Of a stretch of DNA of 45,575 nucleotides, positions 40,411 to 45,445 are shown piece after piece. The stretch is from positions 1 through 45,575 of the forward strand of contig CANJMF010000023.1 of NCBI GenBank assembly GCA_947475895.1, written 5' to 3'. A program made the translations under genes and the position numbers. The DNA comes from Fidelibacterota bacterium (GTDB lineage Bacteria; Pseudomonadota; Alphaproteobacteria; Rhodospirillales; Rhodospirillaceae). A model generated the notes under the pieces. It searched no databases. It was not told the DNA's origin and worked only from the letters and a program-made list of their open reading frames with translations. The stretch's first letter is position 1. Every line of letters begins with the position of its first letter.

Positions 40411-41475
40411 TCAGCTGACCTCGCCGTTCTCCGACATGAAGATCGCGAGCGGGCGTGTTTTCGGGAACTGCCCGAGCACGATCATGGCGATGACGAGCAG
40501 CGGAACCGCCAGCAACATGCCGGCGATGCCCCAAATCGATCCCCATACCGCCAGCGCGACGACCATGAGCAGCGGACTTAAGTTCAACGAACGGCCCATC
40601 AGACGCGGTTCCAAGACATTGCCGATGACGGCGTGCGCCGATGCGAGGATGGCGGTGATGATGGCGAAAAGCGGTACGGAACCATATTGAAGTAACGCCA
40701 GCAGCGCCGGGATCACCACACCGATAACCGGGCCGACGTAGGGAATGAAATTCAAAACAAAGACGAGAAGGCCGAAGAAAGCCGCGAAATCAACGTTCAG
40801 AACGGCGAGGGTGATGTAGGTGATCCCCCCCACCATCAGGCTCATGAGCGTCTTGATCAGGACGTAAGTCTCGGTGCGCCGGCCGATATGCGCGAGCGTC
40901 GCGCGCAGGGTTTGGCGGCGTGCGGGATCGGGGAAAATAGCGTCCAGCTTCCGGTCGAAGGTGCGTTTTTCGAGCAGCGCGAAGATGACGTAGATGAAAA
41001 TCTCGAATGTATTGGCGACGACCGCCTGTAACGCCGCGGCAAAGCGGCCAACCCACATGCCGAGGTCGATCTTTTCCATGACGCTCGTCAACGTAATGGG
41101 TTCGTGTCGATTAAATGTGGAGGCCAGCATGGTGTTGATGCTGATCAGGAGGGTTTCAAAGCGTGCCTGATATTGCGGAGCAGCATCGACGGCCGCGGCG
41201 ATGTTGTCAGCGATCAGTTGGACCAGAACCGCCAGCAGCAGAAGGAAAGAGACAATCGAGGCGGTCATGTTGACCCAGTCCGGCGCTGGGCGGCCGTTGA
41301 TACGGACGCGCTCGAAGATATGCGACAGGGCAATGATCAGGTAGGCAATGAAGATGCCAAGGACCAACGGAATGAAGATGTCCTTGCCCAGGACCAGGAA
41401 GCCGATGGAAACGGCGACGATCCCCAGGGACGAGGCAACGGCGGGCAATGTGATGGGCTGTGATTCAGACGACAT
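40411..41475 (-). CDS. AI-2E family transporter (PerM-like permease)
   Basis: Protein of 354 residues with about eight membrane helices: at 10-40 (two), 65-85, 150-175, 205-230, 235-260, 265-290 and 300-335. The PVIGVVIPALLALLQYGS and NVLEPRLMGRSLNLSPLLMV segments are hallmarks of the family, the latter before the last helices. Members export small molecules or act as Na+/H+ antiporters; AI-2 transport is shown only for few. The ATG lies two bases after the stop of the porin part, so it is the last gene of the phosphodiesterase-porin operon. An inverted repeat CGCGAATC...GATTCGCG lies right after its stop. Confidence 0.93.
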   Translation of the reverse strand: MSSESQPITLPAVASSLGIVAVSIGFLVLGKDIFIPLVLGIFIAYLIIALSHIFERVRINGRPAPDWVNMTASIVSFLLLLAVLVQLIADNIAAAVDAAPQYQARFETLLISINTMLASTFNRHEPITLTSVMEKIDLGMWVGRFAAALQAVVANTFEIFIYVIFALLEKRTFDRKLDAIFPDPARRQTLRATLAHIGRRTETYVLIKTLMSLMVGGITYITLAVLNVDFAAFFGLLVFVLNFIPYVGPVIGVVIPALLALLQYGSVPLFAIITAILASAHAVIGNVLEPRLMGRSLNLSPLLMVVALAVWGSIWGIAGMLLAVPLLVIAMIVLGQFPKTRPLAIFMSENGEVS

Positions 41476-41477
41476 GA

Positions 41478-42764
41478 CTAAAAGAGATTGTAGCCGAAGA
41501 AGATGCGGTAACTCGCCTGGAATATTGTTTCCTTGGCGCGAACCGGCAGCCCGAGGAAGGCGCGCTCGGCCCGTTTGCTGTCCACATGCAGCACTTCCAG
41601 CGTCAGGCGATGGTTATCCACAGGCCGGTAGATATAGCTGAAGGTCAGGCCGGTGCCGTGTTCGTTATTCTTGTCGGGGAAACGATCCTCGTCCGTGGCG
41701 CCGAAGCGGTCCAACCGAAAGCTGACCCGGTTGCGCCCCCAATCTTTGCTAAGAAGCGCGTAGGCCGACCAGTACTTCGTGTAAACGATGGGGCCGACGG
41801 GCGCAGGGATGGTGATGACGGTGGTGTCGCCACTCATCACCTGGGCGATAAAATCGATCTCGGCCGGTAGCTCGACGCGATAGCCCAGAGACCAGAATGT
41901 GGTGCGCCAAGCCCATTGTCCGTCTTTAAGCGCATGATCGTCGGCGCGGTTGTCGTACCACAGGGCCTGAAGGACGCCGAAGTCGGCATAGCGCGCCGAT
42001 CCGCCGACGTAATAGCCGATCTTATTGTCGATCTCGTCGAAGGGAGCATCGGTCGGGGCCTGCTTAAACAGCGCGCCCGTCGGCCGGGTAATGCGGATTG
42101 GCGCCAGCATCAATTGATCGAACAGCCCGGCTTCGCGGTCGTTGAACGACCAACCGCGCCAGGCCAACAGGGTGCCGGCGGGGTCGTTGGCGAAATACAA
42201 TGAACCGGTCAGCCCCAGTTCAAGATCGTCGGTCTGATAAAAGACGGTCGTTTCGCCGCCGATGGTCTTAAGTTCTTCGCCGACCCAGCTGTCGATGGCC
42301 GACGAGGTCAATGTGTAAGGGCTGGTCCAGGCGAGGCCGGTATTTTCCAGGGAGATGGGCGGAAAGAACGCGCCCACGCGTCCGCGTACGCCAAAATTCC
42401 CCGTAGGCGCAGGTTTGTACTGAAGAAACGCCTCGCTGACGTCGATGGCCGTCTTTTGCTGGTCGTTGGCGGTGAGAACGATGTCGCCGCTGAGATCGAA
42501 ACCGAATTTCGGTTGAATGAGCAATACGCCTTCGGCGCGCGGCAAGACGCGGGAGTTACCGCCGGCACCCGCGCCGTAGCGCGTCTTACCAAGCCCGCCG
42601 TCTTCCCACGAGCGTGTGTCACCGGTGACCGCGAAGCGGCCCTCGATATAACCTTTTAAGTCGAGGCTGAAATTGGGCGGCACGCCGTCGTCGGCGCAAG
42701 CCGTGCGCGCCGCAATGAAACAGCCGAGCACGGCTGTTACCAAGATCGGTCGAGATTGACCCAC
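41478..42764 (-). CDS. Outer-membrane porin-like protein, internal start within the fusion
   Basis: In-frame internal gene of 428 residues. GTG at 42762-42764 is preceded by GGGGGAGGAAGAC, a strong Shine-Dalgarno five bases off. The first 23 residues, MGQSRPILVTAVLGCFIAAR plus TACA, form a signal peptide ending before DDG. The rest alternates polar and aromatic residues in beta-hairpins (GYIEGRFAVTG, FGFDLSGDIVLTAND, YYVGGSARYADFG) and ends in Phe, the sorting signal of outer-membrane barrels. As part of the fusion this sequence would be a third membrane helix in an inner-membrane protein and could not reach the outer membrane, so separate translation from this start is the sensible route. 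Transported solute unknown. Confidence 0.7.
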   Translation of the reverse strand: MGQSRPILVTAVLGCFIAARTACADDGVPPNFSLDLKGYIEGRFAVTGDTRSWEDGGLGKTRYGAGAGGNSRVLPRAEGVLLIQPKFGFDLSGDIVLTANDQQKTAIDVSEAFLQYKPAPTGNFGVRGRVGAFFPPISLENTGLAWTSPYTLTSSAIDSWVGEELKTIGGETTVFYQTDDLELGLTGSLYFANDPAGTLLAWRGWSFNDREAGLFDQLMLAPIRITRPTGALFKQAPTDAPFDEIDNKIGYYVGGSARYADFGVLQALWYDNRADDHALKDGQWAWRTTFWSLGYRVELPAEIDFIAQVMSGDTTVITIPAPVGPIVYTKYWSAYALLSKDWGRNRVSFRLDRFGATDEDRFPDKNNEHGTGLTFSYIYRPVDNHRLTLEVLHVDSKRAERAFLGLPVRAKETIFQASYRIFFGYNLF

Positions 42765-45200
42765 GTCTTCCTCCCCCGCGGCGGCGATCCCCGTCGCTGT
42801 GCGTTCATTGCGCCGCGGTGTCCAGCGGGACGCTTGATAGAACGCTTCGAAGTCCTCGGCCGACAAAGGCTTGCTAATGAAATAGCCCTGGCCGGTCTCG
42901 CATCCATAATTCTGAAGAAGCCGCAACGACGCCTCGTCCTCGACCCCTTCGGCTGTAATCTTAAGCCCAAGATTATGGCCGAGTTCGATAGCCGAGCGCA
43001 CAAGAATTAGATCCCCACGGTTCTCGGCAAGCTTCAGCACGAACGATTTGTCGATCTTGATTTCATGGACCGGGAGCCCCTTCAGATAGGCCATGGAGGA
43101 GTATCCGGTACCGTAGTCGTCGATGGACAGCGTTAAGCCCATGGTATTGAGGGCACGCAGGATTTCCAGCGCATGGGCCGGATTTTCCATAACCGCGCTT
43201 TCGGTGATCTCGAGGATCAAAGATTGGGGGCTCACCTCATGGGCCTCGAGCAGGTTGGCGATATCGCTGGGAAGATGGCGGTTGTTGAGATCGCGCGCCG
43301 ACAGGTTGACGGCAATGCGCACGTCGATTCCGTCGTCGTGCCATTTCCGACATTGGCGGACGCCTGCCTCCAGCACCCAGGCGGTCAGTTTCTGAATGTT
43401 GCCGGTTTGCTCGGCCAAGGGAATGAAGTCGTCGGGCGACATAAAGCCGCGTTGGGGATGAACCCAACGGATCAAGGCTTCCACGGCCGTGATCTTTTCG
43501 GTGGAAAGGTCCACCTTGGGCTGGAAGTAGAGCTGGAATTGATCCTCGTCCAAGCCTTGGCGCAATTCACCCATCATTGAGAGCCGTTCGGGCTTATGGG
43601 GATCTAGGACCGGATCGTAAACGGCGTAAGTGCGGCCGCTGCCCTTGGCTTCGTAAACGGCGGTGTCGGCGCGCTGCATCAACAGGCGCGCGTTTTCACC
43701 GTCCTGAGGATAGGCCGCTTCGCCGATGGTGGCCGTGACGTCGATATTGAAACCGCCGATGCTGACCGAACGATCAAAGTGCGACAGGAGGCGCTCGACC
43801 GTCAGTGCCACGGCGGGGTGCTCTTCCATATCGAGCACGATCGCAAACATGTTGTTGGTATGGCGTGCGACCGCGTTGGGTTGCGGCACCAGGCGCACGA
43901 GATTTTTGCCGACCTTGCGCATGAGTTGCTCGCCGGTGTCGTGCCCTAAGGTGTTGGTCAATTCGGAGAAGCGTCCAATTTGCACCAGAAGAACGCTGAA
44001 GGGGCGGCGCGATTCACCGCGTCCGTGAATGATGTCCGTGACGTGGCCTTCAAATGAAACGCGGTTCGGCAAACCCGTCGAGGAGTCGTGACGCGCCTGA
44101 TGTGCGATACGTTCTTCGCGCTCGGCGATGCCATCCATCATCTGATTGAAGGTTTCGGAGAGACGGCCCAATTCGTCATGCTGGGTCACTTGGACTTTTT
44201 CGGCGTAGCGGCCTGCCTGAATGCGGCGCGCAGCTTGATCAAGTACGCGAATGGGCTTTGCGATGCTGCGCGCGACGAACACGGCGCCCACCCATCCGAG
44301 CGCTAGCGTGGCGCCGGTCATGACCACGAGAAGTAAAAATAGCGATTGATAAGGCTGGAGGGCTGAGTCCAACGAGTACTGTAGGACGACGCGTGCCTTC
44401 GGAGCCTTTTCCGGCCCCGCCAGCGTGGTCATTTGCGTGACATAAGGGCTGTTGTTGATGGACATCGTGGTTTGAACGCCGACTGGCGGCGCATTTTCAT
44501 TCATGGCCGTTAGCAATGCATCGCGCGAACTTGCTTTGAGTGTCGAGGCCGCCGTCTTCCATTTGCCGCCAGTGCCGTTAAAGCCGAACGTCACCTCGAT
44601 GGGCAGTGTTGATGTGTGCTGCAATTCGCTCGCGAACGCGTCTGTGATTTCGACGCCGACAACAATCCAGGCAATCGGATCTGGGGCCAAAATAGGAACG
44701 ACGACGAGTTGGTGGATGCGATTATCCAAGACCGTCGTGGTGGCGGCGCGACCTTCGTTGTCGGCGGCGTCGATCATGTCTGGAAATGGAAATTGCGCGC
44801 CGGGTTTTCCGATGCTCACGAAGTTCCCGCCTTCGGCATCGGCCATGCTGCCCGTATCGACGCGAATTTGCCCGTCGAGCGATACCAAGAGGACGCGATC
44901 CGCTTTGATGCGATTGCCGTGATTGTGAAGCACGGACCGGATCGTTGCCCGGTCGTCGGTGGCGACAGCCTGATGGAAAGCGAAATCGCGCGCCATGACC
45001 TCGGAGCCGCTGGCCAACTCGTCGACCTTATACTTTACGCGGGAGTCGACGATATTTTGCGTCAGAACGAGTTGGGTGCGGGCTTGTTCAAGGATGTTGT
45101 TCGTGATGGCCGACTGCACGCGATAGTAGGTGACAGCCTCGACCACGACGAACAACAGCCAGGAAAATAGAATCAGCCGTGTTTGAAAGCTGCGAAACAC
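41478..45200 (-). CDS. c-di-GMP phosphodiesterase fused to an outer-membrane porin-like protein
   Basis: Single open frame of 1240 residues from GTG 45200. Residues 8-28 and 284-311 are membrane helices around a periplasmic Cache/CHASE-like sensor, followed by HAMP (about 310-362) and GGDEF (370-535). The GGDEF motif is lost (TNNMF at 448-452), so no cyclase activity is expected. The EAL domain (545-790) is intact: EAL 574-576, NLSARDL, EITES, DDYGTGYSS, KIDKSF and AEGVED. It should hydrolyse c-di-GMP. From 813 comes a porin-like part with its own signal sequence and a C-terminal Phe (GYNLF). In related genomes I would expect separate genes; here the phosphodiesterase lacks its own stop. Fusion, read-through or a sequence error are all possible. 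Confidence 0.85.
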   Translation of the reverse strand: MFRSFQTRLILFSWLLFVVVEAVTYYRVQSAITNNILEQARTQLVLTQNIVDSRVKYKVDELASGSEVMARDFAFHQAVATDDRATIRSVLHNHGNRIKADRVLLVSLDGQIRVDTGSMADAEGGNFVSIGKPGAQFPFPDMIDAADNEGRAATTTVLDNRIHQLVVVPILAPDPIAWIVVGVEITDAFASELQHTSTLPIEVTFGFNGTGGKWKTAASTLKASSRDALLTAMNENAPPVGVQTTMSINNSPYVTQMTTLAGPEKAPKARVVLQYSLDSALQPYQSLFLLLVVMTGATLALGWVGAVFVARSIAKPIRVLDQAARRIQAGRYAEKVQVTQHDELGRLSETFNQMMDGIAEREERIAHQARHDSSTGLPNRVSFEGHVTDIIHGRGESRRPFSVLLVQIGRFSELTNTLGHDTGEQLMRKVGKNLVRLVPQPNAVARHTNNMFAIVLDMEEHPAVALTVERLLSHFDRSVSIGGFNIDVTATIGEAAYPQDGENARLLMQRADTAVYEAKGSGRTYAVYDPVLDPHKPERLSMMGELRQGLDEDQFQLYFQPKVDLSTEKITAVEALIRWVHPQRGFMSPDDFIPLAEQTGNIQKLTAWVLEAGVRQCRKWHDDGIDVRIAVNLSARDLNNRHLPSDIANLLEAHEVSPQSLILEITESAVMENPAHALEILRALNTMGLTLSIDDYGTGYSSMAYLKGLPVHEIKIDKSFVLKLAENRGDLILVRSAIELGHNLGLKITAEGVEDEASLRLLQNYGCETGQGYFISKPLSAEDFEAFYQASRWTPRRNERTATGIAAAGEEDVGQSRPILVTAVLGCFIAARTACADDGVPPNFSLDLKGYIEGRFAVTGDTRSWEDGGLGKTRYGAGAGGNSRVLPRAEGVLLIQPKFGFDLSGDIVLTANDQQKTAIDVSEAFLQYKPAPTGNFGVRGRVGAFFPPISLENTGLAWTSPYTLTSSAIDSWVGEELKTIGGETTVFYQTDDLELGLTGSLYFANDPAGTLLAWRGWSFNDREAGLFDQLMLAPIRITRPTGALFKQAPTDAPFDEIDNKIGYYVGGSARYADFGVLQALWYDNRADDHALKDGQWAWRTTFWSLGYRVELPAEIDFIAQVMSGDTTVITIPAPVGPIVYTKYWSAYALLSKDWGRNRVSFRLDRFGATDEDRFPDKNNEHGTGLTFSYIYRPVDNHRLTLEVLHVDSKRAERAFLGLPVRAKETIFQASYRIFFGYNLF

Positions 45201-45215: not shown

Positions 45216-45445
45216 CTAGTAGTCGCGCTCATCGACGGCGCCGGGTTTACGCTGGCGACGCTCGCGCTTTAAATCCATTTTTACCGCGATCTCGGCGGTG
45301 CCGTCGGCCGATACGGAGACGGTTTGGCTTTCGCCGGCTCCTTTGCCGCTAGGGTGCCATGTCTTCATGACGTAGTTCCCGGCGGGAAGCTGAGAACTGC
45401 GCGCCCGGCCTTGTCCGTCCGTGGTCGTGACCGGCCCCCACTGAG
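45216..45445 (-). pseudogene. Plastocyanin/methylamine-utilisation-like small protein, cut by IS3
   Basis: C-terminal fragment of about 70 residues before TAG at 45216-45218. It reads DGQGRARSSQLPAGNYVMKT then WHPSGKGAGESQTVSVSADG, an Ig-like or carboxypeptidase-regulatory beta-sandwich edge (LPAGxYxxxxWHP), as in small exported proteins often labelled methylamine utilisation protein. The frame runs into the IS end near 45442-45446, so the N-terminus and signal peptide are gone. It precedes the phosphodiesterase start by 15 bases on the same strand, so it was the first gene of that operon, and the insertion separated the operon from its original promoter. Confidence 0.65.

Follow-up and report, generated by a model that had tools for sequence, protein, structure and literature searches.

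The minus strand of the window (the whole 45,575-nucleotide stretch analysed here) contains a single open frame, 45200..41478, of 1240 codons (1240 aa) plus a stop, in which a sensory c-di-GMP phosphodiesterase with an EAL domain is continued by a porin-like protein. The frame probably represents two ordinary neighbours of a conserved gene row, where the EAL gene has lost its stop codon in the window's lineage and the porin is made mostly from its own GTG start. The presence of separate genes with a stop between them in all 28 other genomes with a readable junction, together with the similar stop-ended tail of the EAL protein in the related locus L011, points to two neighbouring genes and a lost stop.

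Composition of the joined frame

The initial annotation had described one 1240-codon frame joining a sensor-HAMP-GGDEF-EAL protein to a barrel-like part, and this description was borne out. Pfam searches with the joined frame revealed the domains dCache_3 (residues 39–276), HAMP (308–358), GGDEF (369–523) and EAL (545–778) and no domain past EAL, and the second part was predicted to form a 16-strand barrel. The coordinates of the frame and the GTG start at 42764 were also given correctly, the GTG being read at 42764–42762. The features of the region are as follows.

40411..41475, minus strand: AI-2E family transporter, next gene of the row (Pfam; conserved neighbour)
41478..42692, minus strand: porin-like barrel with 16 predicted strands, and the stop codon (model, fold matches)
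42693..42764, minus strand: porin GTG start and signal-like segment, residues 813–836 of the joined frame, with a putative cut expected after ACA
42765..42836, minus strand: C-terminal tail of the EAL protein, residues 789–812, QASRWTPRRNERTATGIAAAGEED, with no stop here (homologous to stop-ended tails in relatives)
42770..42774, minus strand: Shine-Dalgarno-like GGAGG of the porin gene, within the EAL frame (read directly)
42765..45200, minus strand: dCache_3-HAMP-GGDEF-EAL protein, 812 codons up to the porin GTG (frame, Pfam, alignment)
42867..43568, minus strand: EAL domain, residues 545–778 (Pfam PF00563, E 3.9e-74)
45216..45428, minus strand: 3' part of the gene that precedes the EAL gene, a relative of L010:2738-3400, CarboxypepD_reg (the 5' part lies close to one end of contig C11)
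45462..45575, minus strand: 3' end of an rve_3 transposase frame at the contig end, in the same direction as the gene row

The junction in the window and in related genomes

The minus-strand bases of the junction are GCGGGGGAGGAAGACGTGGGTCAA; they read GGAGG-AAGAC-GTG, with GGAGG at 42774–42770, five bases, and GTG at 42764–42762. Residues 818–836 are hydrophobic and signal-like and end in TACA|DDG, so the segment needed for the signal peptide that had been assigned to the second part is present, and the assignment is plausible as judged by hydropathy only. Taken together, the EAL gene looks as if it runs straight into another gene whose start is apparently complete. In the alignment, the counterparts of the window's EAL tail, SRWTPRRNERTATGIAAAGEED, include SRWSPRRASQGSSPGAIAAAGE-stop in L011 and SRWSPHFGGRGITGVVAATGG-stop in L009, L010, L012 and L014; the L011 tail ends in IAAAGE-stop, and the EAL and porin genes of that locus lie in one frame with a TAG between them. 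In L025, L030 and L034, among others, a G-rich stretch, the putative ribosome-binding site of the porin gene, shares bases with the final codons of the EAL gene, whose stop comes just after it. The window keeps both the G-rich stretch and the porin start, and the spacer between them is without a stop; one base change or a short indel would be sufficient to account for this.

Scanning GTDB contigs with the porin part yielded 12 loci (L009–L020), and searches of 99 genomes and of 317 genomes of the order gave a match in 30 and 35 genomes, respectively, the window's own genome included in both counts. The 28 genomes with a readable junction are represented by L022–L038 and L040–L044 (22 loci) and by L020, L039, L098, L101, L105 and L106; they include 13 of the 18 congeners among the 99 genomes, the other congeners having no porin match (two) or porin fragments only (three). 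In every one of the 28, the EAL gene next to the porin gene ends in a normal stop; TAA, TAG and TGA all occur, 10–25 residues beyond the position of window residue 787 or 788. The EAL-porin fusion was found in none of them and is seen in the window's genome alone. The count omits L019, L045–L050, L100 and L103, where the stretch holds no EAL end next to the porin (L045 and L103 are both from G026, a genome to which the contig of L020 probably belongs as well); G175, which had a porin match in the 317-genome search; L009–L018, which duplicate L022, L023, L025–L028, L030, L036, L040 and L042 (L011 being the same genome as L026); and L078–L097, L099, L102 and L104, all of them from the window's genome or from genomes represented elsewhere in the count.

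The pair of EAL and porin genes is kept in L105 and L106, which belong to another family of the order (porin identity 39%). In L101 the EAL gene itself is in pieces, the last of which ends in a stop. Long open porin frames in L025 (860 aa) and L036 (1068 aa) were considered as fusions and rejected, as the EAL stop lies in a frame other than that of the porin. The initial annotation had proposed a search for the same fusion in relatives; a shared fusion is rejected by the intact stop at all 28 junctions, the very arrangement that the annotation itself had set against it.

Several of the relatives carry discordant titles: L009–L012, L015 and L018 are titled 'Candidatus Marinimicrobia' and L014 'uncultured bacterium', and they contain stretches identical with genomes of the window's genus or family. 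The Marinimicrobia titles of these contigs look wrong; other relatives are titled Rhodospirillaceae.

The EAL protein

The EAL domain scores far over the curated cut-off (PF00563, 249.4 bits vs. 31.3), and an alignment of 11 sequences indicated that the motifs EALIRW, NLSA, EITES, DDYGTGYSS, KIDKSF and TAEGVED, which we take to be the signature of an active EAL domain, are all intact in the window. The GG(D/E)EF active-site motif is absent from all 11 aligned sequences, the window reading RHTNNMF at this place, so the GGDEF signature is degenerate. The EAL part of the window departs from the alignment at 13 of 264 otherwise conserved columns, the other sequences at 1 to 34; in the tree of the same sequences L011 is the sister of the window (support 100/99), and the end branches of the two are alike in length (0.37 for the window, 0.39 for L011). 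The protein resembles membrane GGDEF-EAL c-di-GMP phosphodiesterases in its HAMP-GGDEF-EAL order, in its intact EAL signature and in a sensor domain presumed to lie on the outer side of the inner membrane; it differs from the known ones in its dCache_3 sensor and in being joined, in one genome only, to a barrel. Among NCBIfam equivalogs (best 25 of 48 families) it falls under every cut-off, the best match being DibA, NF045675, with 395 bits vs. a cut-off of 980. It is most likely still a working membrane c-di-GMP phosphodiesterase.

The porin-like part

Neither Pfam nor NCBIfam searches revealed a match for the second part (residue 813 on) up to E 0.01, so that no named porin family is indicated by sequence, and comparing its sequence with those of solved structures gave no credible relative (one PDB row, E 0.82, with an unrelated name). 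A structure was modelled from a 20-sequence alignment that included the window's sequence (mean pLDDT 67, pTM 0.71); with this moderate confidence, it contains 16 strands and an N-terminal helix at residues 6–21. The Foldseek search indicated porins as the nearest solved folds, with the chitoporin VhChiP, OmpT, OprO/OprP, PorB, Omp32 and DcaP among the matches listed and E-values of 1.1e-11 to 5.7e-8 for the best 50 rows. The predicted 16-strand barrel is shared with Gram-negative porins such as VhChiP (5mdq), OprP (2o4v) and DcaP (6eus), from which the window part differs in its low identity (8–14%, query TM 0.35–0.56 in the best 50 rows) and in having no Pfam or NCBIfam match. A barrel of 16 or 18 strands behind a signal peptide had been looked for, and a 16-strand one is predicted, at moderate model confidence and with the signal seen in hydropathy only. 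'Porin-like' is therefore a reasonable description of the modelled protein, whose family is nameless in Pfam and NCBIfam. The porin part of the window departs at 1 of 77 otherwise conserved columns (0 to 4 in the other sequences), and its end branch of 0.40 is longer than the tree median of 0.22 and was not flagged as long.

The porin-like family, with a length of about 430 aa (window 41481–42764, minus strand), also occurs immediately behind an EAL gene in 28 further genomes of the order. Extra copies of the family were noticed in L039 (G043), where two consecutive porins come after one EAL gene, and at G035:C4:5787-7004.

The gene row and a probable insertion upstream

The conserved row consists of a CarboxypepD_reg-type gene, the EAL phosphodiesterase, the porin and an AI-2E transporter. 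In the window, the AI-2E family transporter starts two bases past the porin stop and its frame is whole; an AI-2E match stands behind the porin in 9 of the 12 loci L009–L020, the stretches of L017, L019 and L020 being cut short there. The CarboxypepD_reg-type gene that precedes the EAL gene has a match in 11 of these 12 loci (all but L019); of the four loci scanned with Pfam, L010 and L013 scored over the CarboxypepD_reg cut-off, L015 and L016 under it.

In the window's genome this first gene is split, with its 3' part matched at window 45228–45428 and its 5' part at C11:89852-90244, near the contig end. The last 136 bases of the window occur five times in full and identical form, this instance counted; a sixth copy is identical but partial, and eleven matches of 53–60 bases are weak. 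The end of C11 (G000:C11:90269-90389, L077) is likewise repetitive, with four identical copies when its own is counted. Repeats are thus located at both break points of the gene, one of them with a transposase end, and the halves lie on two contigs; the simplest reading, with a putative join between the two contigs, would be an insertion sequence within the CarboxypepD_reg-type gene. Contig C11 also carries a TonB receptor facing away, the upstream cyclase described below and SapC.

Topology and processing

Hydropathy suggests an N-terminal membrane segment near residues 5–28, an outer dCache domain and a second segment near 287–317, after which HAMP, GGDEF and EAL would be cytoplasmic. A further hydrophobic stretch, residues 165–183, lies within dCache_3 and was taken as the core of this domain; if it crossed the membrane, the proposed topology would change. 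Since the ribosome-binding site and start of the porin gene are kept, most of the porin would be expected to start at its own GTG. Where ribosomes read on, the chain would re-enter the membrane at the porin signal segment, residues 818–836, in an N-in, C-out orientation, and signal peptidase I could cut it, giving a free porin and an EAL protein with a C-terminal membrane anchor. Because re-entry at this segment would carry the barrel out, read-through would be compatible with the topology, and the earlier verdict that a fusion is 'topologically odd' seems overstated: a cytoplasmic EAL domain followed by an internal signal would place the barrel in the periplasm.

Origin of the missing stop

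The comparison supports the earlier suggestion that either a stop codon was lost, with translation of the two genes coupled, or a base is in error, and the junction looks like an accident of one lineage, or such an error, rather than a new kind of protein. We infer that the loss is real. It is possible, though less likely, that a base or indel error of the assembly has removed the stop and that the two genes are normal in the organism itself. The fusion occurs in a single genome, and, as no second genome of the window's species was found, the evidence for the missing stop comes from one assembly, of 36 contigs. Farther upstream, a frame break interrupts the cyclase gene of this genome (L077:3304-5045; a relative of L010:819-2579, Guanylate_cyc), and one of the genome's nine AMP-binding genes (G000:C4:75910-77011) is apparently split, judging from adjacent coordinates and profile positions; the base errors or decay that these may reflect weigh against the preferred explanation. 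On the other hand, all 10 ACR_tran genes and all 3 Aldedh genes are unsplit, and a search for a high general error rate in the three multi-copy families revealed one apparent split among 22 genes, so that such a rate is not evident in what is a small sample. The cyclase, moreover, has a match in six of the seven relatives given, in one piece in five of them (including L010, the source of the query) and in two pieces in different frames in L009, which implies that breaks in this gene need not be errors of the window's genome.

It is unlikely, but conceivable, that the whole row is decaying: an insertion sequence would have disrupted the CarboxypepD_reg-type gene and possibly the promoter as well, and loss of the stop would have followed under relaxed selection. 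The split CarboxypepD_reg-type gene with repeats at both break points and the frame-broken cyclase are in accordance with this. Against it, a search for decay of the EAL and porin halves in conserved columns and branch lengths revealed none: their conserved residues are kept, the EAL end branch is like that of the sister L011 and the AI-2E frame is whole, although very recent decay would leave no other trace. Since neither half looks decayed, the loss of the stop, if real, would be recent or harmless.

A fusion maintained by selection, in which one chain would tie the phosphodiesterase to the porin in a 1:1 ratio and signal peptidase would yield an anchored enzyme and a free porin, appears highly improbable. 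The frame is open, both halves are conserved and the membrane segments permit a workable topology. There is also a possible precedent in FbcH, the cytochrome b/c1 precursor cut at an internal signal, where a membrane protein ending in the cytoplasm continues into a signal peptide and then into a part that is exported. The likeness lies in this order of parts; FbcH is a settled arrangement in its lineage, whereas the junction of the window is private to one genome, with only putative processing. The absence of the fusion from the 28 other genomes and the porin's own Shine-Dalgarno sequence and start, kept as for a separate gene, both argue against selection. The new link between c-di-GMP breakdown and porin level that had been suggested through the fusion is not supported. 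There is very little chance that the missing stop is both real and used, giving a polyprotein cut into an anchored phosphodiesterase and a porin in fixed proportion, beside the porin made from its own GTG. Title-level literature searches for an EAL-porin fusion, for stop loss between neighbouring genes and for a cupredoxin/EAL operon gave no title on point, nor did those for the FbcH precedent and internal signals among the matches listed.

Two ordinary neighbours with a lost stop remain the preferred reading, and the case illustrates that a lone missing stop between such neighbours can pass for a striking 'fusion'. If read-through were real and used, it would provide an unusual natural polyprotein with one part in the inner membrane and one in the outer membrane. 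Of more lasting interest than the fusion is the arrangement itself, a sensory c-di-GMP phosphodiesterase directly before a nameless porin-like family, which occurs within the genus and the family of the window and, outside that family, in two genomes from a different family of the order; a shared envelope function of the phosphodiesterase and the porin may be tested from this conserved row.
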